Shown in pieces: positions 6,661 to 36,600 of a stretch of 50,124 nt of DNA. The notes under the pieces were generated by a model, which was given only the letters and a program-made list of their open reading frames with translations, was not told where the DNA came from and did no database searches. The position numbers and the translations under genes were made by a program. The stretch lies in IMG/VR virus record IMGVR_UViG_3300005581_000019, positions 1 through 50,124 of that record; one strand, 5' to 3'. Source of the DNA: a virus. Position 1 is the stretch's first letter. Each line of letters begins with the position of its first letter.

Positions 6661-7006
6661 AAAAGATTTCCTTCGACCGTTATAAGGTAAAACGGTCTGG
6701 TCGCAGGAAGCAACAAGCCTGCCGTTCAGCATGGGTCCGCCAGTCAGGTGCCATGTGGGCGATAGTCGTGACTGGTTCGCCCGCCGTGGGGCGTGTCAAA
6801 GTTCCACGGCATCCAATTTCTACTGCTCCAGCAGCGACCGTTCGCTACGGAAACTGTAAAGCATGGCTTACAACACTGGAGGAAGAAAGCCCCACAGCCC
6901 CTGTCTGGTAAATGCGGAAGCCCTTCTCGGGCGATCTATAGAAGGGATGAAATCAGAGACGAGAATACGGACAAACGCTTGTGCCACTTGAAGCACACGG
7001 GCAAGG

Positions 7007-7052
7007 ACGGAACCGCTGGGGCGTCACGCCAGCGTCGGAAACGGTAACCGAC
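7007..7052 (+). repeat. Two-hairpin RNA motif, copy 1
   Basis: GGAACCG is followed by a hairpin closed by CGCTGG/CCAGCG with GCGTCA in its loop region, and then by GTCGG (7034-7038)/CCGAC (7048-7052) with the 9-nt loop AAACGGTAA. The same order, with different stem bases but matching loops, appears at 10302-10345. Confidence 0.65.
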
Positions 7053-7172
7053 ACCTCAATGAAGCGGCGGAATAGCTTACCCAACGACGCCTGAATCATT
7101 CATGTCCTACGCTTGAAATCTTCGAAGACTATACAGCGTAATCCACGAAAAAAACAGGGCCGCTTCACCCCT

Positions 7173-7187
7173 TTCAGTCTGACCAAA
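7173..7187 (+). repeat. Degenerate dyad repeat just before a start
   Basis: TTCAGTCTGACCAAA differs from the exact repeat at three positions and lies 4 nt before the ATG at 7192, the same placement as the exact copies. Probably a decayed or variant copy. Confidence 0.5.
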
Positions 7188-7191
7188 CACC

Positions 7192-7518
7192 ATGAACACC
7201 CTCGAAAAAACACGTCACTTCCAACCCGACATCGCCATCACCGTGGATTGGAAATACGACCCGTCATTCGTCTGGGACGGGGACGGAGAAGATCCCAAAA
7301 ATGATCGGAATTACCCACAGCATCCACATAATGTTACTGTCACAGCGTCCATCATCCGCAAAGGTGTCCTCATCCAAGACAGCGTCTATCTCGGCGGCTG
7401 CTACGCGTTTTACAATGGCCCCTACGATGAGGAAGTTAACGGTTATCTCCCGCAAATGATCGACGACGCGATTCAATTTCTCGACTTGAAGCTCAAAGAA
7501 ACCATCATCGAACCATGA
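7192..7518 (+). CDS. Hypothetical protein (108 aa)
   Basis: A 108-residue acidic protein with an Asp-rich centre (DPSFVWDGDGEDPKND) and beta-type segments (HNVTVTASIIRKGVLIQDSV). It starts just after structured RNA 1 and a variant dyad repeat, and overlaps the nuclease gene by 4 bp, so it is probably an accessory of the recombination cassette or simply its first gene. No family is recognised. Confidence 0.65.
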   Translation: MNTLEKTRHFQPDIAITVDWKYDPSFVWDGDGEDPKNDRNYPQHPHNVTVTASIIRKGVLIQDSVYLGGCYAFYNGPYDEEVNGYLPQMIDDAIQFLDLKLKETIIEP

Positions 7519-8372
7519 AAGACATCTCCAAAGAACTCCACAGTTTCCCAAGCCCGTTCGCCCGCGCCATCACTCGCGACCATTACGACGGAGGTACGTC
7601 GATGTTCAGCGTCACCACCCTCATCTCCCCACCCCAGCGCACCTACCTCAAGACGCTGGGTGAGGAAATCCGCAGCCCTTACGGATCGTTCGCGGCGATG
7701 CTCGGCACGGCGATGCACCACATCATCGAGCAGAACATCGACGAGGCGGCCGGAGAGATCGCGGAGCGCCGTCTCTACACCGACATCACGGTGGGCGGCG
7801 AGTCCATCTCGGTGAGCGGCCAAATCGACCACTGGGAGAACCGCACGCTGTCAGATTACAAGCTGACAGGAGGCGTGCAGGACAAAATGAAGGACCCTCA
7901 CTTCCTCCAAGTCCAGATGAACGGCTATCTCGCCGAATGCAACGACATTCCCGTAGACTTTGTCAGCGTCATCTACGTGCAAAAAGACTGGAGCCACTTG
8001 CGGTCCACTTTCGACCCCACTTACCCGCAGACACCGTTCAAGGTGTATGTCCACCCCTTCGACCGCGAGCTGGCCGTCCGGACGTTCCAGACCACCACCA
8101 CCGACCACTGGAACGCCAAGCAGGGCAATCCCCGTCCCTGCACGCCGGACGAACAGTGGCGCAAGCCCACCACCTACGCGCTGATGAAGCCGGACGCCAA
8201 GCGGGCGTCTAAAGTGTGCGACACGCGCAGCGAGGCCCAAGAGCTCCTCAAGCCCGGCCAAATGATTGTCGAACGTCCCGGCGAAGCCACCTACTGCCTT
8301 CACTTCTGCGGGTTTGCCCACCTCTGCCCGCAGTTCAAGCGCGAGCAGATGTCCAACACACCCGACCAATGA
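7515..8372 (+). CDS. RecB/Cas4-like PD-(D/E)XK nuclease
   Basis: 285 residues. Motifs seen: GTAMHH (64-69) for the helix that carries the conserved His; SGQID with Asp105; and DYK (114-116), which together give the H...D...(D/E)xK order of RecB-family exonucleases. A cysteine set near the C-terminus, C261, C265 and C271, resembles the iron-sulfur ligands of Cas4/AddB nucleases. It should degrade double-stranded DNA ends and make single strands for the annealing protein encoded at 8812. The gene order nuclease, two small genes, ERF and ssDNA-binding candidates supports this. Confidence 0.85.
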   Translation: MKDISKELHSFPSPFARAITRDHYDGGTSMFSVTTLISPPQRTYLKTLGEEIRSPYGSFAAMLGTAMHHIIEQNIDEAAGEIAERRLYTDITVGGESISVSGQIDHWENRTLSDYKLTGGVQDKMKDPHFLQVQMNGYLAECNDIPVDFVSVIYVQKDWSHLRSTFDPTYPQTPFKVYVHPFDRELAVRTFQTTTTDHWNAKQGNPRPCTPDEQWRKPTTYALMKPDAKRASKVCDTRSEAQELLKPGQMIVERPGEATYCLHFCGFAHLCPQFKREQMSNTPDQ

Positions 8373-8560
8373 ACCCCACTGAAGAACAAATCGTCAACGC
8401 CATGACGGAATATGGTGGGTCGTTCGTGCAGGCTCTTGCCAACGCCTTCCGTAAAGCGGACGACGGCAACGCGGAGCGCATCCGGCTGGCCTTCCCCGAG
8501 ATCTGGACCATCTACACCAATTTAGCCCGGCTAAAATACGAACCCTACTCCAAAGATTGA
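8369..8560 (+). CDS. Small hypothetical protein (63 aa)
   Basis: A 63-residue protein starting at the ATGA overlap with the nuclease gene. It is mostly helical (VQALANAFRKADDG) and its C-terminus, LARLKYEPYSKD, is partly encoded by a symmetric copy of the dyad repeat (8521-8535). No family is recognised. The small size and position suggest an accessory of the recombination genes. Confidence 0.65.
   Translation: MNPTEEQIVNAMTEYGGSFVQALANAFRKADDGNAERIRLAFPEIWTIYTNLARLKYEPYSKD
8521..8535 (+). repeat. 15-bp dyad repeat, symmetric form (TTTAGCCCGGCTAAA)
   Basis: This copy lies inside a gene and is translated as part of LARLK. Its AGCCCGG (8524-8530) can also pair with CCGGGCT (8566-8572) downstream, an alternative to the hairpin at 8560. 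Confidence 0.85.
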
Positions 8561-8585
8561 GCCCTCCGGGCTGGAGACATTTTTG
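8560..8585 (+). terminator. Weak terminator or attenuator hairpin
   Basis: AGCCC (8560-8564) with GGGCT (8568-8572) forms a short hairpin, followed by GGAGACATTTTTGT. A similar hairpin-plus-CATTTTGT tail occurs after the dyad repeat at 13228. The stem is short, so termination would be partial. Confidence 0.45.
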
Positions 8586-8587
8586 TC

Positions 8588-8809
8588 ATGATTAAATCCC
8601 TACCGCAAAACATCCGCCGCGTGTTCGAAAAACACGGGCTTGAAGCCGACTCGCTGTCCTTTGACGACGCATCCCTTATTGTTGAATTCGACGATATTGA
8701 GGTGGCGTTCAAAGTCAGGGAAGCCATACTCGACCTTCACGCCTGCTGCCTCATCAACCGTGGCGGCAAGCCAGCACTACTCATCCACAACCTACTCGCC
8801 AACCAATAG
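8588..8809 (+). CDS. Small hypothetical protein (73 aa)
   Basis: A 73-residue acidic protein (MIKSLPQNIRRVFEKHG...) with a beta hairpin in the middle (SLIVEFDDIEVAFKV) and a helical end. It follows the attenuator-like hairpin and ends 2 nt before the ERF gene, so it is co-transcribed with it. The function is unknown. Confidence 0.65.
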   Translation: MIKSLPQNIRRVFEKHGLEADSLSFDDASLIVEFDDIEVAFKVREAILDLHACCLINRGGKPALLIHNLLANQ

Positions 8810-8811
8810 CC

Positions 8812-9420
8812 ATGTCCAAATCCAACATCAAACTGCAAGAAATCCAGTCGAACCTCAACGCTCCCAAGACGTTGGAAAACAAGTTCGGCGGATACAAATA
8901 CCGGTCCGCCGAATCCATCCTCGAAGCGCTCAAGCCACACCTTGAAAAACACCAAGCCACCCTCACTCTCAGTGACGAGATTGTGGAAGTGGGCGGACGT
9001 GTCTACGTCAAAGCCACCGCTACGTTCAGGACTGATGACCAGATCATCTCCACCACCGCGTTCGCTCGCGAAGCCGAAAGCAAAAAAGGTATGGACGACG
9101 CGCAGGTGACCGGAGCCTGTTCATCTTACGCCCGTAAATACGCTCTCAACGGCTTGTTCTGCATTGACGACACCAAGGATGCAGACGCCACTGAAACCCA
9201 CGGCAAGACGGAGCCGGTTTCCAAGCCCGCTCCGACCGCAGCCGCCAAGCCCACACCCAAGCCAGCCGATGACATGGTCAATACCATCGTCACCGTAATG
9301 CGCGCGCAAACCACTCTCAGCGATCTTGAGGCCAAGATGGACAAAGCCAAAGGGACTCCCTACGGCACCAATCCGCTGATCCTCGCCGCCTACACCGAAA
9401 CCAAAAACAACATAAAGTAA
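8812..9420 (+). CDS. ERF-family single-strand annealing protein
   Basis: 202 residues. The N-terminal part matches ERF-type recombinases: KFGGYKYRSAESILEALKP at about residues 23-41, then alternating strands (VEVGGRVYVKATATFRT), then VTGACSSYARKYALNGLF and a D-rich site (DDTKDAD). The C-terminal third is Pro/Ala/Lys-rich linker plus a short helix. ERF proteins anneal complementary single strands during phage recombination and circularisation. The upstream nuclease makes its substrate, and the following genes look like single-strand binders. Family assignment is firm from the pattern. Confidence 0.85.
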   Translation: MSKSNIKLQEIQSNLNAPKTLENKFGGYKYRSAESILEALKPHLEKHQATLTLSDEIVEVGGRVYVKATATFRTDDQIISTTAFAREAESKKGMDDAQVTGACSSYARKYALNGLFCIDDTKDADATETHGKTEPVSKPAPTAAAKPTPKPADDMVNTIVTVMRAQTTLSDLEAKMDKAKGTPYGTNPLILAAYTETKNNIK

Positions 9421-9704
9421 TGTCACAGACATATGAAATCAAAGGAGCCGTCAAATTTGTCGGCGAAATGGAAACCCTCGGAGCCAAAGGCTTCACCAAA
9501 CGCGAGCTCATCGTCACCACCCCCGACGAGAAATACCCGCAAGACCTCAAGATCGAGTTTGTCAAAGACAACTGCTCGAAGCTCGACGACATCAGCGTTG
9601 GCGACGAAGTCACAGTGGGTGTCAATCTCCGTGGCAGCGAATACAACGGCAAGTATTACGTCAGCCTGACCGGCTGGAAAATCGACAAGGGCGAACCTTT
9701 CTAA
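9420..9704 (+). CDS. DUF3127-like OB-fold protein
   Basis: A 94-residue protein with the DUF3127 layout: an opening strand (YEIKGAVKFVG), a basic loop with KRELIVTT, DEKYPQDLKIEF, then VGDEVTVGVNLRGSEYNGKYYVSLTGWKI. Members of this family are small, OB-like and found mostly in Bacteroidota and their phages. A role in single-strand DNA binding is inferred from the fold and from its position between ERF and another OB-like protein. Its ATG shares one base with the ERF stop. Confidence 0.8.
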   Translation: MSQTYEIKGAVKFVGEMETLGAKGFTKRELIVTTPDEKYPQDLKIEFVKDNCSKLDDISVGDEVTVGVNLRGSEYNGKYYVSLTGWKIDKGEPF

Positions 9705-9707
9705 GTC

Positions 9708-10178
9708 ATGGCAACACTCCATCAAGTCAGCACGGCCAAGGATGGAGAAAGCTTCACCGCCATCGGCGTTGTGGTTGTTCACAAGCAGTTCAACCCCAAG
9801 GTAGCGAAAAACGGCAAGCTGTTTTCCAGCGTCATCCTCAAGAGCGCGGGCACAGAAGTGTTCATGACCTTGTGGGAGGACGCTGCGAAATGGAAGCTTC
9901 CGATCAACACCGACATGATCCTGCGTGGCAAGTTCACAAAGAATCAATACAACGGCGCGGCCAGCCTCAAATGCGAGGAACTGGCCGTGCCGGAAAACGC
10001 AACGGAGTTCAAGCAAGATGAAATCCAAGGCGAGCCTGAAAAGCCAAAGATGAAGGACTGCCTCGACGCGGGTCTCAGAGCGGCGGACTACATGGTCCGC
10101 AAGGAACGTCCTGACCTCGCGTCAGCCGCCTTCACCTTCGCCGCCAACGCCTTCATGCAGGGCGTCCGCATGGAATAA
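9708..10178 (+). CDS. OB-like putative single-strand DNA-binding protein
   Basis: 156 residues. The first 100 resemble an OB fold: FTAIGVVVVHKQFN, then KLFSSVILKSAGTEVFMTLW, then DMILRGKFTKNQYNGAASLKCEEL. The C-terminal 45 residues are helical and end AFMQGVRME rather than with the acidic tip usual in bacterial SSB. It probably completes the nuclease-ERF-DUF3127 module as the single-strand binder, but this is inferred from fold pattern and location. The second structured region begins right after its stop. Confidence 0.6.
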   Translation: MATLHQVSTAKDGESFTAIGVVVVHKQFNPKVAKNGKLFSSVILKSAGTEVFMTLWEDAAKWKLPINTDMILRGKFTKNQYNGAASLKCEELAVPENATEFKQDEIQGEPEKPKMKDCLDAGLRAADYMVRKERPDLASAAFTFAANAFMQGVRME

Positions 10179-10301
10179 TTCTCCGCCCCCGGCGTTAACC
10201 GGTTGGGGGACAGATCCGGGGAAACACGGTTGACACATCGGAAAGACGGTGCCTTACGCATGAACTTTGGTCAGTAGTTGTATAGCTAAATCCCAAACCA
10301 T

Positions 10302-10345
10302 GGAACCGTCAGTAGCGTCAAGCTGACACCGGATACGGTAACCGG
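10302..10345 (+). repeat. Two-hairpin RNA motif, copy 2
   Basis: GGAACCG is followed by GTCAG/CTGAC with GCGTCA in the loop and then by CCGG (10329-10332)/CCGG (10342-10345) with loop ATACGGTAA. Compared with copy 1 the loops match (8 of 9 bases in the second) while the stem bases differ but still pair. Confidence 0.65.
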
Positions 10346-10538
10346 ACTCTTTTGAGCATGAGAAGCGCCTCGGCGTTAAGCGTAGAAAGCCGCCTCGCGA
10401 ACGGCCATGCTCACCCACTCTCCGGCGCGTGTGCGCAGAACCCATTCCAATCCTGTGGAACCGATAGCTAAGGGGCTTGCAGGATCACCGGGAATGTTCG
10501 TTCAAATGTCGGGAAACCGAGCGCGTCGGACCTCTTTC

Positions 10539-10553
10539 TTTAGCCTGACTAAA
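10539..10553 (+). repeat. 15-bp dyad repeat, copy (TTTAGCCTGACTAAA)
   Basis: An exact copy at the 3' edge of structured RNA 2, ending 4 nt before the ATG at 10558. Confidence 0.9.
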
Positions 10554-10557
10554 ACCA

Positions 10558-24489: not shown

Positions 24490-24647
24490 AAAAAGAACTA
24501 CAAGAAGCTGCATTCACCCGTGAGATCGAGAAACGCATTGATCAGCTAGCAACCGAGTTCGACCTGTCCTATTCGTTCGTCGTGGGGGCCCTCAGCCTGA
24601 TCCTCCACGGGATCAAGGCTGAGTATTTTGAGGACAATGAAGATTAG
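24486..24647 (+). CDS. Last rightward gene, TTG start (53 aa)
   Basis: A TTG at 24486 overlaps the previous stop and opens 53 codons (LKKELQEAAFTREIEK..., the first residue being Met in practice). The product is helical and acidic, with ATEFDLSYSFVVGALSLILH in the middle. Its TAG at 24645-24647 overlaps the end of the giant leftward gene. No ATG is available, so expression relies on TTG. Confidence 0.5.
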   Translation: MKKELQEAAFTREIEKRIDQLATEFDLSYSFVVGALSLILHGIKAEYFEDNED

Positions 24648-27600
24648 TAGCTTTCCCTTTTCTCTTCTTTGACCGGCTTTCTAAGAACAGATTTGAAGTG
24701 ACCGCGAGCGTCTCGCATAAATGGAGCCAGCTCAGTCAGCGCATACATCGCCGAATTGCTTGCAGAGCTCATCCGGTTGCTGGCCGCTTCATCCGTCATG
24801 TTGTATTCGGCAAGAAGCTTCATCGCTGAGCTCATGTCGTAAACCGCGCTGGTCGCCGCCGTGACACCCATCGCGTTCTCGAAAGCCCCCGCTTCGTATT
24901 GACGAGCCATGACACCATCGTCGTCGAAGTAGAAACGAGACTTCTCAAGCATCTCGTCATTTCCTGTGATTCCACGATAGCCATTCGTGACCATCGTCAC
25001 AATGCTTTCCGCAGCGTCGTTGGTAATGAACTTTTCAAGCAAGTTGCTCACCGGAGAGTAACCCGCCGCAACTCCACCGACAGGAATCATCGTCGCGCTC
25101 TCTAGCAAAGTTTTGTTGAAAATCTCGGCAAGAGCAGAAGCAAACGCTGCGTCAGGTTCCAAATCGGACCTAAACAACTCGCGTTCTTTTCCAACCGCTA
25201 CAATCTTCAGGAAGTTGGCGACAGCGTTTCCATCCTCCGAAGGAGCAAGAATGTTGTTCGCCATCTCCTGCGCGTGGATCACCGCCTCGTCCTCGTCGTC
25301 TCCCATAAAGACCCGTGCGATCACCCAAGAAACGATTGAAACTGCAACCTTCCACTTCAAGATGGGGAACAAGGCGTTCTGGACAAATGTCGCAACGACG
25401 TTCTCCAGCGCCTCTTTGTGAGTGGCTTCGTCGATCACCTCGATCTTTTTGAATCCTGCCTTGCGAAGCAGCGGGTTGATGGCTTGCGGGAATTGCACGG
25501 ACATGTTGCTTGCCGTGGAAGACGTGTGGTTCGAGAACAACGTCAACGCCTTCCAAAGCGCCGAAACAAACGGGCTGTGGTCTCTGGATTGGAACATCCA
25601 AGCCTTGTTGCTGTGGTCCGACTGGCCGAACATCTCGTTCACTTTGAGACGTGAATTGACAATGTCCATGTCCTGAAGACTGACGTTTCCTTTGAACAAC
25701 TCGTTCTCGTCGGTGACGTTCGTATGGTCCATCAACTCGGCAATGAACACGGACGTTGCCAAAGCTCGTTCCATCTTTCCAATCGTAAAGTCCAAAGCGT
25801 CTTCACCAACCTTTTCGTAAGTGCGGATTGCTTTGCCAAGAGTGTTTTTGACCACCTTGCTGCCATAACGCTTTTGACCACGCGTCACATCGCGCAGCAC
25901 TTCGCGCCCATCCAGCGAGCGGTAATAAACCATGACGTCGTTGTCCATGACCAGTTGGCGGGCTTTCTCCCTGAACTTGGAGTCGGTCAAATACTTCGCC
26001 ACCAGCCTGAAGTAGTTCTTCACCATCCCCGGTTTGCCCACCGCCAGCTTGCCAAGAGTGTAGCCAATGGATGGTCCTACCGATTGGTCGGTGATTTGTT
26101 GGACGGAAGCCAAGCTGCGGACGATGAACGCCGAGCTCAGGAACCTGAGCGTTTCAGATCCCCCGGTATTTACGGCTCCAGTTTGGAAGTCATTCCTAAT
26201 CGCCACTTCAAGCTCGTTGGCGACAAACGCCAAGGCCGTGGTGGCTGCGACGATGTTTTGTTTGTGCTCGTGCTCAGCCTCGCGCAACTCACGATTTGGA
26301 AGCAACGGATCTGGTTTTTGAGCTTCAAGAATGGCAAGCATCCCGCTGTCTTCAATGTTCAACTGCCCGCTGACGTCCTTTACTTTGCCAATCGAACGAC
26401 GCAGCACCTCGTAAGTTGGAGTGACGTTCAGGCGGTAGATGGCGTCGTCAACCAGCGACTGCGGAGCGGACAAGCCGTTCACCGAAATCGGACGGAACAC
26501 GCTCTTGTCGTCAAACAACCGGGAAGAATGACCAATCCCACCGAAAAACGACGCCTCGTCAAACGAGACAATGTCCATCGGGTCGGAAACGTATTCGCCT
26601 TGGCGGATGTCTTCCTTGCCAGCCGGGTTGCCCGCGTAGGCAATGCTCATCGGGACCGACGAGTAGGTGGTCTTGTAAGCGTTGAGCTTCTTGTCCCGCC
26701 ACTTGCTGCTGGTGGCAAAGTCGTCAGCGCTCTCCGGCTTGGAAAGCATTGCCTGCGTGAAGTGCATGGCGCTGTCGATGTCTCCAAGGACGTCACCAAT
26801 GGTCTTGGCGTAGTGATCAACCGCTGCTTCCTTGCCGCTTGAGACATTCTTTCTCAGCGTCGCCTTGATCTTCTCAACCTCAGCGCGAGCCTCAACATCA
26901 TCGGTGAAAGTGGCGTTGACTTTCGCGGAAGTGAGGATGGAGCGCATCTTTTCCGTCAACTCCCGGTCGCGGATCAAATCAAGATGCCCTGCATTCCAGT
27001 AGCGTGAAATGTCGTTCTTGCCGTAGTAGTCGTCTTGCGCTTGGGCAAACTCATCGTATTGAGCAAAGCCGGTCTTGGCCTGCTTAATCCACTCGTTAAA
27101 CGCCTTCGCGTAAGTGAGACCGTGTGCGTTGACCAGCCCGTCTAGAAGCGCGATGAAGTAGCCAATCGACTGGTCCTGCGCGTTGTGACCCACCTGCTTG
27201 GCCGCTTGGGCAATTTCCTCCTGTGCCACCTTCTTGCTTCGCTCGTAACCGTGACGACCGCTTTTGCCGTCAATCCCACGGTCAAGAAGCGTCCGCAAGT
27301 GAATCGCCGCCTGACGCCCAGCACGAGTCTTTTGGAAGCGCTTCTTCATCCGTGCGTCGTGGTGATCCAAATACTCCATGAAGAACAAAGACGTCTTGGA
27401 GTTGTGGATGGTCATTGAGGTGGTGAGACGCTGAAGGATCAGGTCCGTCTCCACCTCCATGAACACCTTCGAGAAAATCTCCTCGGTCTTGAACCCAATC
27501 ATGTTGTCCACATCCCATCCGGCTCCCCACTGCTTGGCCGCAGCAATATTGGTAAACGAACGACCGTCATTCTCGCTGATGCTTTCAAGGAACGCCTTTA

Positions 27601-30600
27601 CGGCCTTCTTCGTGTCATCGCTCAACACTCCGGCGGAGTCGTTGTAGGCCATGACAATCCCTTCGATCTTGTGGATGGCACCGGCAAGAGCCGCTTGGGA
27701 GACGCGGCGAGACATATCCACCTTCTTCGTCCCGTCCGCTTTCATGTCGTTGCGGATGCCGTCGAGAAACACCTGCATCTTGCGGGTGAACTCATTGGAG
27801 AATGTCTTGGCAGCTTGATCCTTGGTCAGCGTCTTGCCTTTAGTCAGGCTAAACTCGTCCGAATTGAAACTCTCGCCCTTGATCCCATCCATGGTGTCCA
27901 TGAAGTAGGAATGGTCGTCGGCTGCAATAGCCAGAGCGTGCGAAGCTATGTGCCCTAAAACCGTGTTGGAATTGCGCTTGGTCACCCTACTAGGGAAAGA
28001 CCTCATAAGCTGCTCACGGGCCGTTGTGGCCACCATGATGACGTCCTGCCCTTCCTGACTGAACAACGAGCCAATCTTCTCCGACCGCTCCTTCATGCTC
28101 TTGGGCATGTTGAGGATGGTGAGACGGGTTTGCTGGTTGGGGGTGAGCAGTTGGAACTCAGCGCTCGCAGGGTCCACCAGCATCGCAACGTGCTCCGCTT
28201 CAAGACCGCGCATCATCGCTTGCTCCGCATCCGACCTCGCTTGTCCCATGTTGTCCCTCAAAACCACCTCCTCCACCTCGGTCATTTTGATCGCTTGGCG
28301 AATCACCTTGAGTGGGTTGAAGTTTTGGAAGTTGTCTTGGGTGTTGCGGGCGATCTTGTAGTTGTCGTCGATGTGGTCTTTGGAAAGGTTGGTCAACGCG
28401 TTGAGGACCGCCGTCTCCTTGATGTAGTGCTCTTTTCTACGAGCCTTGATCTCCGCGTCGGCCATCGACTCATCCGAAGATAGGTCATTCCATTTCGTCT
28501 TGTCACCACCTACGGTGTTGGTTCCGTCAGCGTTCTTGCTCTCCGTAAATTCAGGCGTGAGGAAGAGATGGAAGCCAATGGTGCGTGAAACAGGCTCAAC
28601 CCCCTCCGACACCAACACATCCCCCTTTGTCACCCGACCCACACCAATGTCCCCCTTGAAGAACGACTGCCCGACGTAGGAGCCACCGGTGTAGTTCTCA
28701 ACCTTGGAAAGTTCTGCGTTCACCGCACGGAGGTCTTTCTCCACCCGTGCGATTTGACGGTCCAAGACGCGAAGCTTTCCAGCCAAGACCACCGACTCCG
28801 CCTTGGCGAGTTCGGCGTTCTCCCTGCTCATCGCGTTGCTCATCACATCCACGCTGAGCTTCTTGCCGTTGCGCTTGCCGTTCTTGTCGGGAAGAGCGCT
28901 CTCGGTTCCGGCCCAATACTTCCTGACGTTCTCGGCGTTGAGGACAACAGCCTCGGCACGGGTTGTCTTTAGCCCGGCTAAAACCTCCTCGAAGCGGGCC
29001 TTGTTGTCTTCATGGCTCTTCACCAAAGCGCGGGCTTCACGCTCGGCAATCTCCATGGCGTTGCGCGGAAGCGCCACCTTCAGGTCGGCGATCAACTGGT
29101 CATTGACCACCACGTCCAATTCCTGATGACCAAACTTCATGTCTGCCATCGAATCGTTCGGCTGGTTGTGAGTCTTGTTCTCAGCCGCCTTGGCAAGCAA
29201 CGCGTTCTTGATCGACAGCGTCATTTGCTCTTCAACCATCGCCTCAACACTTCCCGTGTTGTAGAGAAGTCCGGCGTTGATCCGCTTGATCCGTGTCCCG
29301 TAAAACCCGGAGGTCAGACGCGTGCGCCCGTTCGCGTTCGGCATGGTCAGCGTCAGAGCCGATCCGACGTAGATGCGTGCCACCTTTTGCATCCGGGTCA
29401 ATTCCTTGGCCGGGCCAGTCGACTTGTCCTCCTTGGAGTTGGTCTTAATGACAGGACTGGAAAGCATTTGAAGCTCCTTGTTGTTTTTGTCAGTGTAAAC
29501 CCGCTTCCCTTGGTCCCTTAAAATCTCATTCGTGCTGCGACCTTTGCCGTCAGCGCGGGTGCGGAGCTCATCCAAGAACGCGTCGCTCTCCACTCCGTTG
29601 AATTGTTTGCCAGCAAGGACGATGGAAGCAAGGGCGTTGTAGAGGAGGTTGTCGCTCCTGTCGTTCTGGCTGAAGTCGGCTTGAGACATGACGGTCCGGG
29701 CCTTGTTCTCTTCCTCTCCAATCTCATTCATTTCCCGTTGGAATTCATCCAGCTCGGTATTATCGAACAATCCTGAAAGCTCATCATTCCTTTCCGTGGC
29801 ATCATCAATCTCGATCATTGCGTCCGGGCTGGACGTGCTCGCATTTTCCTCGTCCATTTCATCCTCTTCAGAATCGACAGGTTCCTCTTCAACCTCGTAA
29901 ATAGAGTTTTCGGTTTCATCACCAAAGCGGCCCGGATCATCCAGCTTGCTTTGACGGATCGACCAGATGGCTTTCATCAGGTCGTCCTGAATCTGGACTG
30001 GAAGCGTGGTTTCCAGCTTATCCTCCCTCGTCTTGAACGACTCGTCCAAGAACGTCTTGGCTTTGTCATCTGTAAGGAACGCGGAGATGGTGATGATGGC
30101 GTCCGCCGTGGCAGGCTCAATGTCAGGAAAAGACAGGCTTCTTGAGACAATGTCAAAGTCGGCGCGAATCGCCGCCATCCTGTCCAAAGCATCCAAGACT
30201 TGCGACTTGTTTGCGACAAACGTCCGTTTGCCCGGCTGTGAGCGGCGTGTGATCACACGACCCTCAACCACTGCCACCGGCTTTAGCTCAGTATCAATCT
30301 TTAAGGCCAGTTCAATCAACGTCGTCTTCACCGAGGGGTCGTTCTCCGCCGAGATGGAAAGCAGCTGGGAAATGACACTACGGGCTTTGTCTTTGGAGAC
30401 ATAGGGTCCGTTCTGGTTCAACGGAAGAATGACAACGTTTGGCGTGGCGGGTGTCTTGGCCTTCTTGTCAGCGGGTTTGCCTTTGAAGATTTGAACGCCC
30501 AAACTCTGCAGTCCATTGCGGTTGGCGACGTCCGACTGGATGTGGGCGACAATCGTCCGACCGGCAAGGTTGTCCACAAGATGGTCGATGATCGCATTGC

Positions 30601-33600
30601 CTGTCCCGTGTCCCATTCCAAGACGGGAGTCCTTGAACCAGAAGTTCTCACTCACCATCGACTCCTTGATGGCCGCTGTGATGCGCTCCGACTCTTCAGG
30701 GCTGACGAACGGGTTGCCGTTCTTGATCGCCTCATACGCCACGGCGACATCGTCTTGGTTCTTGAACCGGTCCGCTTCCACCACCTCGCGCTCAAACTTC
30801 ATCTTGAATTCAAGCAGGTCCATGATGAACCGCTCGGAATCCGTGAAGCGATAGCCGTTGGTCTCGGACATCTTGTTGCCGTATTCGCTGAGGAACGCCG
30901 TGTAAATCTGCCCGTGCATTTCGTCGTTGGTGTGACCCACGGCAGGGAATAGGCCTTTCAACCCTCTCTTCACCAGCTCTTCCGTCATCGCGCCATTGAA
31001 CGCGTTGAACAACTCGCGGTTGACCGCTTTCTGATCATACGGGTTGGCTTCGTTGAAATCCAAGTCCTCGTTCATCCGATCTTCCATTTCGCGGATGTCG
31101 TTGTCGCTGATGCGTGGGACATCGAGACCCGTGGCCGGATCAGTGACCATGCCGCCAAATGATCTCATGCCTGTCGGATTCAACGCTTCCCTACGCTCGC
31201 GCTCGGCAATCACCTGCTCGGCATTGAACCAGCCAGCATGACGCTCGGCACGCATGACGTCGAAGTGGAACTGCTGGCCGTCGGCAGACGAGCGACCGTT
31301 CGGTCCGTTGCTTCCAATGAACATCGCCGCAGACGTCACGCTCATCGCACGGTTGACCGCAGGACGACCAAAGGCACGCTCCGCGCTCTCACTCGGGGTT
31401 GACGCCCGACCTTCGTTGTAGGTGTCGTTGTAGCCCTCCATGGTAGGTGAGCTGGCGTTCATGAAGGAGTTGGCGACACGAGGATCGTCAGGGCTTCCAG
31501 AGAAATCGTTTGGATTGATCACCTCATCCGTGGAGCGAAGTTGGCCATCTGATCCGGGTTTCACCCTCACGTAAGGCATCCGGCCCTCTCCATAGCTGCT
31601 CCGGTTGATGCTGTCGTAAAGCTCGGACGCCCACGTCGATCCGTAGATGTAATTCCGGTCTTCTTCAAAATACTTCAACGTCCACGCCAACCGGTTCACA
31701 ACCCGAGCGTCCGACGTCATCTCCTTGAGCTTCAGGAACGCCTTGTTGTCCGGCTCGAAGGCGGGGTCGCGCTGGTAGCGGTTGCCTTCGTATTCCACGT
31801 TTCTGTGCCACTTGTCGTTCTGGAACGCCTTCAGAGACTTCTTCAGCAGCTTGACGCCACGAGTCGCGTTCCTGAATCCCCACGGAAGGAATTGGCTCCC
31901 CTGTCCGCTGACGATTGTATTGTAGAGCTTGTTGTTGATGTCGGCCACCTTCATGGTCGAAATCTTAATCAAGTTCCCATTCTCCAGCTCAAAAAAGTCC
32001 ATGAAGTCCACCTTGTCGGAAGGCATCTGGAACACCCCGTTCACGTTGTATTTCGACTTGGTCTTGTAGTGCTGCTTGAGGTCGTTCATCACCACCCTCA
32101 TTTCGTTCTGAAGGTAGGAGTCCAAGCCTCCGGTCATCTCAAACGATGTCTCGCCCGTCAGGCTGTTCCTTGTTTCCTGAAGCTTTCCAAACAACCCTTG
32201 AAGCATCGGAGTCATCCGGCCTGCAAAGCTTTGCTCGCCACCCACGGTGTCCGTGATCCGGCCTTCATACTTGCTCTTGATCTTGGCGGTCCATGAATTG
32301 ATCCCCTGATACGCCTTGAGCAGAGCCAAGATGGACCCCGACTTGTCGGACTTGCTCAGCGCGTGCTTTGCGGAGCCAAACTCCTCGCCGTCAAAATCAG
32401 GGAACGCCGAGTCCAACGACTCAAACTCCTCCTGATCGTTGTCGTTGACCTCTTTGTTGAAAAGGAAACCGCCCGTTCTTTCGTAGTCGCTGGCGCTGGT
32501 TCCAATCTCAAGCTTTCCAAGCTGGGAACTGACCCAGTAATTCAGGAACAGGTTCTTGCCCACGAAGTCGGCGTTCGACTCCATCGTTTGTTGGTAAATC
32601 TCAAGACCAGCGTTCCAGTCCTCTTGCTCTTGCGTCAGAGTTTTCCCGGCCTTTGGCCATACCGCTTTGGCTCCGTAACTGTAAACGCTCTCGCCAGCCA
32701 TCAGTCCCTTGAAGACATCATCCGACCCATAAGCGTGCTCCAACGTATCAGACAAGCTCTTGAACTCAAGCGAGCCAGCCTCACCCGTCGGGACGTTCAA
32801 GTCCGCCAAGTTGATCCCGAAGTCCTCGCTGCTCTTCCAAAACTCACCGACGGAACGGTTTTTGACGAATTGGATGGAATCGTTGTAGTCGTCAACGGCT
32901 TGCTGAAACTCCATGTATTCCCTGTAAACCGCTTGGGCCTTGGCGCGGGCTTCAGGGTCTTGGTTCTCGTCACGCTCAAAGACGTTGTCCTGACGCTTAT
33001 GGCTGATTTCCTTCTTCTTTTGAGAAGCGTCAAACTTTTCTTGAGAATAAGCACGGAGCTTTTCAATCATCTCCGTCATCTCCGCCACCTTGGACTCCTG
33101 TTCCTTTAGTCGGGCTAAAGAGTCAACCACTGGTCCTGAGAAGGTTTTCGCAAACCGCTCGTGCAAATCACCGGTAATGTAGTTCTCGGAGACAAGGAGG
33201 GATTGGAGAATAGACGTCTTGTAAGACTCAAGAGCCGCCGCAAATTCTTCTGGATTGGCCCGTTCAAGACGCTCACGTGGAGACCACTCAACAGACTGAT
33301 CCACACTTGCAACCAAGGGAGACAACGCGATATTTGTCTGATCGGTGGACTTGCTTGGTCGCTTGAGATTTCCAACCGGGCGAGCAACGTCGTCAATCTC
33401 AAGATTCGTGGAGACCTTGTATTTGCCGGGCTTGAGATTCTTCCTGAATCCAACGCTGGTCAAACGTCCCCACTTCAAGAGCTCTTTGATTGACGCCGAG
33501 CCACTGACCTTGGTGTCGATGTCTTGAACGGCACGAATGGCGTGAGCATATGCCTCGTTTGCCGTGCGGTTCATCTCGTCCACCGCAAGACCTCTGGCTT

Positions 33601-36600
33601 CCATCAAAGGAGTCAAAGGGCGCGTTGAAGATTCCTCCGCAGGCATCCCGTCCAGAATGGTGCGCCACAGCAACATGCGCTTCGCAGCGTTGGCCTCCTT
33701 GCGTTGGGTTGGGGACAGGTCGGGGTTGTTGTCGTCGCGGATGGTGTCGAACAAATCAAGTGGATTGAAGGACAGGCTGTCCCGTCTCATCTCCATGACC
33801 TGTTGCTTCATGAAGGCCACCGTCATCGCCTGCTGGTAAGCCGGTGCCTTCCCACCCTTGTCATTCAGGTCGAACAAAAACCCTTCCACCTGCTCCATCT
33901 CCTCATCAGTCAAGGTCTTGTATTCCGCAATGTGAGCCTTGATCCGTGGATGGAGATCCAGCGTCATGGTCTCGTGGTCGACGACCAAGGACTGACTGAG
34001 GTTCATGTGACCAAACTGCCTGCTGATCGAGCGCAGCTTCATCGCGGTCTTCGACTGGAGACGGGCAATCTTCCCGACCTCCTCCTTGAATGCCTTCTCG
34101 TAAACATCACGACGACGTTCCGCCTCCTTGGTCGCCTCGTCATAGCCGTAGTCCACGTCTCCTTGAATGCCCTCATTCCGGTAAGCCCGGTTCATGCTTG
34201 CCAACATTTCACGCGCCTGTGGCGGCAGGGTGCCTGTCTGCCACTTCATCCAGAGAATGTTCCTGACCCGTTCGGCATAGCGGCGGATCATGTGTCCAAT
34301 GACGCGCAGAGGACTTTTGGAGAGGCTTCCTTGCGTCTCGTTGGCCTTGTCAAAGGCGTCCCCGTAAATGGCGTCCTGAAGCTGGCGGGAGAGAGCTGTA
34401 TCGCGCTCCGTGGTCGTCCCCTTGGTCGCCATCTGGTGAAGCTTGCGGATCAGCTCCGTTGCCACCGTATAGGTGATTTCCAGTTCTTTGGCGTCCGCTC
34501 CCACCGAATCATCCATGTCCGCATCGTCAATTGACGCGTCGAGCGGCCTACCATTGGTTCCAGTCGGAAAGCGCTCTTTCAACGTTTCTTTCAAAAGACG
34601 GGTGAACTCATGGTCCGATCCGTCTTTGTTCTTAGGCAGGTCGAGAATAGCTTTGTAAAACGACCGAAGTTCGTCGGCGGAGAAAATCTTGAATCCAATC
34701 AAGTGGGTGAGCTCTTCGTCAATCCATGCTGAAATAACCCGAGCGGCATCCATCCCGAGCAGCGTGTTGGACGCGGAATCGTTGGTGTTGGCTGTCCGGT
34801 AAATCTTGGCGAGCTGCACAGCCATCTTGGCGTAGTCCACCTTGATCGTGCCATACTCGGTTGAATCGACGTTTGGCTCAGCGTAAAGGAAGCTGTCACC
34901 GCTCATCTCCTCCTTGACGACCTTGAAGGTCTTCTTCGGAGACACCACCTTCATCACCTTGGCGAACAGCTTCTCCATGTTCTCTGGAGTGATGTCTCCT
35001 TTGGCAATGCTCTTGAAGTGTTTCTGAACCTCCTTGGCAACGTTAGCAAGCAAGGAGCGGGTGTATTTGTTTCCTTGGTTTATCAGACCTTTGTCGGTGA
35101 TGAGGTCGCCAGCAGCTTCGGCAGTGGTTTTCTTGGAGAACTCCCAACGTCCATTTACCACATTCGTCACCTGAAGAAACTCGTCAGGCTTGCCCTCAAT
35201 CGCCACCACCTCGCCAATCGACAATGACAGCGAGCTGCCAGTAGGCGGACGGTAGCTGTAAACAACCTCCTTGGTTTCCGAGACGTCCATCGTCCAGTTG
35301 CCGCCAATCGAGTCGTCACCTCCCTTGATCAACTCCGGGTCGGCGACGTAAACCACATCCTGATAAACCGTCGAAGCCGCATTGTCCGCTGTCTTGTCCT
35401 GCGTCTTCAGGGCGTCGGCTTTGGAATGGCCAGCAAGACGGGCCTGCATGGACTTGATGGCGACAGAACGAGTGCCGCCCCCCTTGGACAACTCATTGTC
35501 AATCGCTTCGTCGGTGACGTAGGTTTTGCCGTTCTTGGCGACGGGTTTGAAGACGCCGTTGTCATGGATGTAGTTCGGATCGTTTTCACCCAATGGCGGA
35601 AGCCCGCGCTGGATGTCGCTTCCAAGCTTGTTGCGGACCACCTCCCGGTCGTTGTTGGTAGGTGTGGCTGGAGCTGCCGGGGTGGATTCCTCGGCAGCTC
35701 CTTCGTTCAGCAGCCCTTGCCTTTTGGCTTCGACATCGGCATCGGCTTTCCTTTTGGCATCGGTTTCGCTTTGGTTTTCATCGGTTGGTGGTGTTGGTTT
35801 CTTGGTTTCTTCCGCCGGAGTGGCGGAAGGAGTTGGGCCGGTCGTCGGGGCGTCGGGTGAATTCGTTTCTTTTCTCGCGGTTTTGAGTTTTGTGACCTTG
35901 CCCCCGAATATCGTGAGAACCGTTCTTGGTGCATGACTACCTCCAGTTGCAAACTTCCCGTCACCAATACTCCACCATACCACGCCTTGCTCGTCGATGA
36001 TTTCTTCAGCCTGCGAAGCCTGTTCTAGTATCTGTGCTTCGAACGATTTCCGCTTTTTACTTAGTTCCACCGCCGCCTGTTCACGGGTAAGGCCTTCCGC
36101 CATTCGCTTTTTGGTATATTCGCGGCCGTCTTTCAGCTCATTGGGTAATTGTGGGACAGCATCCCCGATATTTAATGGCGTTTGTGGCGTGGCGGAGGGA
36201 GCTTCTTTAACCGGGCTAACTTCAGATGGAGATAAGTCAATTTCGTTGTCGCTCAGCCCTTCACTAGATGCCACAGCGCCTGCGCTTGATGTCTTGAGAG
36301 ATGCGCCAGCACTTGCAGCTTCGCCACCGCTGTTTCCTTCGGCATCTCGAACATCGGCCAAATCTTCTTCGCCGGTAACGGTGATTTCTGCATCAGTTGT
36401 TGGATTTGCTCCATCTTGTTCGGACCATTCATCGTGGTAGGTTGTGTCGTTTGCATTGGTTGAAAATTTATCTGACCATCGTTTGGCCATGCTGGCGTCT
36501 TTCGGCTTGATCACCTGCTTCACCGTTCTGAGCGCGGTGGCGGCTTGAGGCGGACTGAGATACTCGGTAGTGACGGTGCCGTCTGGATTGACCGTTTCCT

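Follow-up and report, generated by a model that had tools for sequence, protein, structure and literature searches.

A Pseudoknotted Two-Hairpin RNA Motif Shared by Diverse Phages and Its Possible Role as a Portable Domain of Non-Coding RNAs

Comparison with Known Phage RNAs

Among the closest described systems is the put RNA of phage HK022, a short RNA of two stem-loops, which occurs in two copies per phage and has no dedicated protein; its structure includes an A-G pair as well as an RNA triplex, and the paper nowhere uses the term pseudoknot (PMC9378689). The put sites (putL and putR) are located upstream of terminators and act in cis, through the beta' zinc-binding domain of RNA polymerase, to suppress termination. 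Other structured RNAs of phages include the DUF3800 RNA motifs (Rfam RF02967 DUF3800-VII and its siblings), which occur in phage and prophage DNA; GOLLD and ROOL, which are untranslated RNAs with pseudoknots, often near tRNA islands; and the boxB hairpins of the lambda type.

Here, we analyzed a stretch of viral DNA of 50,124 nt (IMG/VR record IMGVR_UViG_3300005581_000019), hereafter called the window, which contains two copies (a and b) of a two-hairpin RNA motif. Like put, the motif is a short phage RNA of two stem-loops that occurs twice per genome and upstream of terminators. However, one or three copies are present in some phages, the fold contains an ACC-GGU pseudoknot where put has the triplex and the A-G pair at the junction, and some copies are situated inside larger RNAs. 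Regarding homology to putL/putR, covariance model R2 gave a best match of 11.5 bits (E 0.4) on the HK022 genome, within a structural gene and at about the level of chance. The DUF3800 motifs differ in fold and sequence; no DUF3800 model matches the motif, and the DUF3800-VII model matches 70 nt upstream of it rather than the motif itself. In comparison with GOLLD and ROOL, the motif is much smaller and modular, and their Rfam models gave no match in the window or in the homologues scanned; the tRNA neighborhood, a trait of these RNAs, was seen in loci L149 and L147, while the window itself contains no tRNA. Unlike lambda-type boxB, the motif has a second hairpin and a pseudoknot, and neither an N-type protein nor boxA was identified for it.

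A comparison with Rfam had been suggested in an earlier sequence-only reading of this DNA, which named a match to a known family of other function as evidence against its interpretation. At the gathering threshold, Rfam 15 gave no match anywhere in the window, nor at the motif in those homologues that were scanned; in the stretches tried with a limit of E = 5, the motif again had none. No tRNA or tmRNA was called at the motif by ARAGORN or Rfam. No description of it was found in the literature searched, and a mention outside of Rfam is possible in the Weinberg 2017 survey (224 candidate RNAs), which lies beyond that search. The motif is a structured RNA family without an Rfam 15 entry, common to very different phage genomes and found in association with tRNA arrays and with other phage RNAs that lack an explanation.

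Organization of the Motif in the Window

The sequence-only reading claimed that the same order, GGAACCG followed by a first (SL1) and a second (SL2) hairpin, occurs twice with stems that differ and still pair, and this was confirmed (Table 1). The position of GGAACCG, which begins at 7009 and 10302, shifts the start of the first copy from the 7007 given there to 7009. The stems and loops stood as described, except that G7034 had been counted in both CCAGCG and GTCGG of copy a; in the consensus, it is an unpaired linker. Copies a and b are located in long, untranslated intergenic gaps (6661-7191 and 10179-10557, respectively), and ACGGTAACC occurs twice in the window versus 0.15 expected. Single-sequence folding of the motif was unremarkable (z-scores from -1.9 to +0.2), and the whole gaps gave z-scores of -0.9 to -1.0. 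Because the folding of single sequences says little, the case rests on comparative evidence.

Table 1. Coordinates of the motif copies and the surrounding RNA elements in the window.
Feature	Position	Strand	Remarks
Domain I of RNA a	6861..6954	+	Three hairpins, one loop pseudoknot
Domain I, hairpin 1	6865-6869 / 6887-6891	+	GGCTT/AAGCC
Domain I, hairpin 2	Loop 6898-6901; partner 6944-6947	+	CCCC loop can pair with GGGA as a pseudoknot
Copy a of the two-hairpin motif	7009..7052	+	R1 score 62.9 bits; belongs to the R1 training set
Copy a, pseudoknot 5' arm	7012..7014	+	ACC; pairs with GGT 7043-7045 in the SL2 loop; basis: compensatory change in L134a
Copy a, SL1	7015-7019/7029-7033	+	Loop GGCGTCACG
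Copy a, linker	7034	+	G, one unpaired base
Copy a, SL2	7035-7038/7048-7051	+	Loop AAACGGTAA
RNA b	10225..10347	+	Stem-loop CATC-GGAAAGAC-GGTG, then GCCTTACGCA, variable hairpin, motif
Copy b of the two-hairpin motif	10302..10345	+	R1 score 74.2 bits; belongs to the R1 training set
Copy b, pseudoknot 5' arm	10305..10307	+	ACC; pairs with GGT 10337-10339; basis: compensatory change in L134b (row hand-placed)
Copy b, SL1	10308-10312/10323-10327	+	Loop TAGCGTCAAG
Copy b, linker	10328	+	A, between SL1 and SL2
Copy b, SL2	10329-10332/10342-10345	+	Loop ATACGGTAA

Homologues and Covariation

Covariance model R1 was trained on 11 copies, including both copies of the window, and recovered copies outside of its training set (L118, L007 and L134, the last from a close relative of the window phage). 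There were 26 model matches, 23 of them distinct, and further near-identical copies; together, they come from about 20 virus records and one Stutzerimonas genome. Phages selected by relatedness of the Erf protein yielded more copies, some having two or three. In the pattern scans, the stem letters were left free. The first, exact pattern with fixed loops gave 28 matches, which by a rough estimate is about the chance number, and only L007 and L012 were real; a looser pattern, used after R1, extended the motif to Pseudomonas-group phages, a Stutzerimonas chromosome (prophage locus L159) and tRNA-array phages. The first pattern search of genome contigs gave zero matches, and 32 loci were obtained with a looser one; L159 was the only strong match among the loci rescored. 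With R2, one strong match was found among 399 genomes from the family of G018, namely G018 itself, along with three further matches near E 0.005, a number not above that expected by chance; 98 relatives gave none beyond G018. Locus L209, found in the last scan, was rejected as a copy, as it has no such hairpins.

With the stem letters free in the patterns, the covariation of the stems did not arise from the search, whereas the conservation of the loop letters did so in part. In the 11-copy set, eight of the nine stem pairs have both bases substituted without loss of pairing; eight of nine likewise change on both sides in the 26 model-fitted copies, in which both hairpins are paired in almost all cells. 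In the 23 distinct copies, 99.3% of the cells are paired over 12 pairs, those of the pseudoknot among them, and the covariation is 0.60 versus 0.19 after shuffling; slid partners reached no more than 0.12. A tree of the copies, which is rough and built from 49 columns, shows 23 same-branch compensatory changes versus 4.8 expected, the null maximum being 10 in 2000 draws. These counts use the model-fitted alignment A4, which leans towards the structure; the MAFFT alignment A3 misplaced the SL1 gap. An alternative helix (CGUGU/AUACG) competes in the folding of the Pseudomonas-group copies. Judging from these sequence comparisons, it is near certain that the structure is real and consists of a 5-bp SL1, one unpaired nucleotide, a 4-5-bp SL2 and the ACC-GGU pseudoknot. 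A search by covariance model, as proposed in the sequence-only reading, yielded further covarying homologues. They lend strong support to the view taken there that the conserved loops and covarying stems mark a functional RNA domain.

The GGAACCG element is conserved because its ACC, located just 5' of SL1, pairs with the GGU of the SL2 loop, forming the pseudoknot. One pseudoknot pair, C-G, is replaced by U-A in L134a and by A-U in L134b (p = 0.016 for the pair changed in L134, with the L134b row placed by hand). Such compensation is limited to these two copies, and one mismatched edge pair is present in L083/L033. The pattern scan demanded ACCG and ACGGTAA, so the conservation of the pseudoknot letters in the pattern-found copies is partly by construction; two scans with two letters free per side showed CC/GG in every real copy, which is neutral on pairing. 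Neither the pseudoknot nor the larger RNA that includes copy a had been noticed in the sequence-only reading. A pseudoknot defined in this way allows a direct test by compensatory mutations, which opens the function of the motif to immediate attack.

The letters C, G, A and G of the first loop and G, T and A of the second are invariant across distant copies, and no pairing accounts for the conserved letters of the SL1 loop (consensus RRCGUMANG). This loop can be read as a GUMAN pentaloop closed by C-G, similar to GNRA loops and to the loop of boxB. A tRNA-elbow arrangement, with SL1 as the T-loop and SL2 as the D-loop, was considered and dropped: the loop-loop pairing shows no covariation, whereas ACC-GGU covaries.

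Larger RNAs around the Two Copies

Upstream of copy a lies domain I (about 95 nt), with 80% identity to L118 over about 100 nt. It was aligned in L134, L034, L035 and L033 and is also present in L110. The arms of its pseudoknot vary yet pair (CCAG/CTGG, CAAG/CTTG, CGCA/TGCG, CCCG/CGGG), with 26 of 28 cells paired and three of four positions in the window itself. They pair in all seven copies, the letters differing in most, and the arm permutation gave 2/5040, a figure that flatters the case, since the arms were picked by eye. A resemblance of domain I to RNase P was rejected, as it had no support from Rfam. RNA b does not contain domain I and has its own upstream hairpin instead. It is homologous in L118, L110, L012, L034, L035, L033, L083 and L007; in L030 and L135, which are close relatives, the whole unit is absent and an unrelated filler of about 33 nt takes its place.

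A third similar-looking hairpin, GACCGTT-ATAAGGTAA-AACGGTC (6675-6697), precedes RNA a, and the element containing it is shared with L036 (75% identity over 6661-6811). Further untranslated elements that look structured and are conserved in close relatives were found in the window (10350-10557), L030 (1940-2125) and L134 (5874-6176); their long closing stems end in ACC, e.g., GAGCATG...CATGCTCACC and CCGGCGCG...CGCGTCGGACC. Stretches of 730-1370 nt with no evident gene are located in L110 (4480-5850), where repeated units are spaced by TTTTCCAAA, and in L012 (4365-5090). Both contain a tRNA-like T-arm, GGAGGTTCGAATCCTCC, which was not called by ARAGORN.

Genomic Context and Possible Roles

The sequence-only reading hinted at a link with the recombination cassette, and both copies of the window do adjoin DNA recombination genes, as would be expected of a single-stranded DNA structure or a DNA site for protein binding instead of an RNA. 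However, the cassette proved not to be a constant neighbor. Among the relatives of the window phage, some have the motif near recombination genes and others at a distance of kilobases (in L083, it lies about 4 kb upstream of Erf; in L118, a second copy is located 4 kb further on), and the Pseudomonas-group and tRNA-array phages likewise depart from this setting. The DNA reading is also opposed by the G-U pairs that occur within the stems, by the single orientation of most copies relative to nearby genes (124 ORFs in the same direction versus 46 in the opposite one) and by the association with tRNA arrays and terminators, and we consider it barely credible.

Several copies overlap no ORF of at least 60 codons. 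The motif is often located upstream of a gene start and has conserved loops and variable stems, which would suit a riboswitch-like cis-regulatory leader of the downstream gene. However, no constant downstream gene was found among the copies compared, where small orphan genes, tRNAs or the holin or terminase region follow, and a terminator separates the motif from the gene in several Pseudomonas-group loci. This already disfavored explanation is very improbable.

In L149, a stand-alone motif follows a promoter-like TTGACA-17 nt-TATAAC and lies 4 nt before tRNA-Thr, leading it and a second tRNA-like gene. In L147, the motif is found 5 nt before a four-tRNA array, and a weak second copy follows the last tRNA, before a terminator; a tRNA is also located beside the motif in L155. 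In six Pseudomonas-group loci, an intrinsic terminator follows the motif after 7-29 nt; in the loci examined, holin or terminase genes are located further downstream. In L159 and L145, both Pseudomonas-group loci, a DUF3800-VII RNA precedes the motif by about 70 nt. The motif can be repeated up to three times within one untranslated stretch of 660 nt, and L034 has three copies in one stretch.

A conserved phage RNA module, ATGAATGCGCAGGCTGATGCGC...GCCGGAGATCAGCACCGGCCATCTGCA, was observed in L147, L189-L192 and Pseudomonas-group loci; it had no Rfam match at the gathering threshold in the loci scanned, which were those other than L189-L192. The named phages AH02, Erwinia 59, Aurca01 and Jeremy were rejected as carriers of the motif: a neighboring RNA module is present in them, and the motif is absent.

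The main rival explanation, suggested by layout, is a cis-acting antiterminator of the HK022 put kind, in which the nascent two-hairpin RNA would bind the transcribing RNA polymerase and allow it to read through terminators and through untranslated stretches, tRNA arrays for example. It is consistent with the outline shared with put, with the place of the L149 motif between a promoter-like sequence and a tRNA operon, and with the Pseudomonas-group copies just before terminators and upstream of holin or terminase genes. However, the match to the HK022 genome does not exceed chance, the fold differs from that of put, the tandem copies of L034 and the weak copy ending the L147 array would be odd for an antiterminator, and no terminator-like hairpin is found within 120 nt after copies a and b. 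We regard this explanation as possible but doubtful. It is rather unlikely that the motif represents a widespread second class of antiterminator RNA, pseudoknotted and unrelated to put, acting on RNA polymerase with no dedicated protein and, in phages of unrelated hosts, carrying transcription across non-coding RNA clusters, tRNA arrays and the terminators that precede late genes. If the motif does act on RNA polymerase, protein-free RNA antitermination would not be an HK022 curiosity.

The motif borders RNA units on their 5' or 3' side, being found just before terminators or 4-5 nt ahead of tRNAs, and this placement could also indicate an end or processing element, whose pseudoknot would shield RNA ends from exonucleases or guide cleavage between the motif and the following tRNA. 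The internal, repeated copies of L034 and L110 are not at ends, however, and this role seems improbable.

Based on the settings taken together, a portable domain of phage non-coding RNAs fits best; the put-like explanation leaves the tandem and end copies unexplained. The terminator-proximal copies fit an independent RNA because an intrinsic terminator is the usual 3' end of such an RNA. We give roughly even chances to the proposal, drawn from sequence comparison, that the motif is a self-folding domain presenting a conserved loop to a putative partner. The motif would be transcribed as part of a phage non-coding RNA and, being compact, would fold by itself. The pseudoknot would lock both hairpins side by side and expose the SL1 loop, on whose surface a protein or another RNA may dock as the partner. 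The domain stands alone in short leaders, forms the end of larger RNAs, of about 230 nt where domain I is included, or occurs in repeats, and the RNAs would be expressed from untranslated RNA clusters alongside phage tRNAs and other structured RNAs. Most likely, the motif would act as the partner-binding module of RNAs that presumably function in trans.

Other Features of the Window

The palindrome TTTAGYC-N-GRCTAAA has 18 copies in the window with zero mismatches, versus 0 expected (positions 806, 4564, 8521, 10539, 13228, 15518, 17058, 21504, 22929, 23854, 27839, 28968, 33105, 37803, 38870, 40551, 42204 and 49802). Among the copies read in context, several are located just before a gene start, and those at 8521 and 13228 are not. 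It looks like a phage-wide operator or an RNA hairpin, and similar 16-nt palindrome forms are present in L007 and L034. In addition, an open reading frame of 4848 codons on the minus strand (24644-39190) occupies about 29% of the window.
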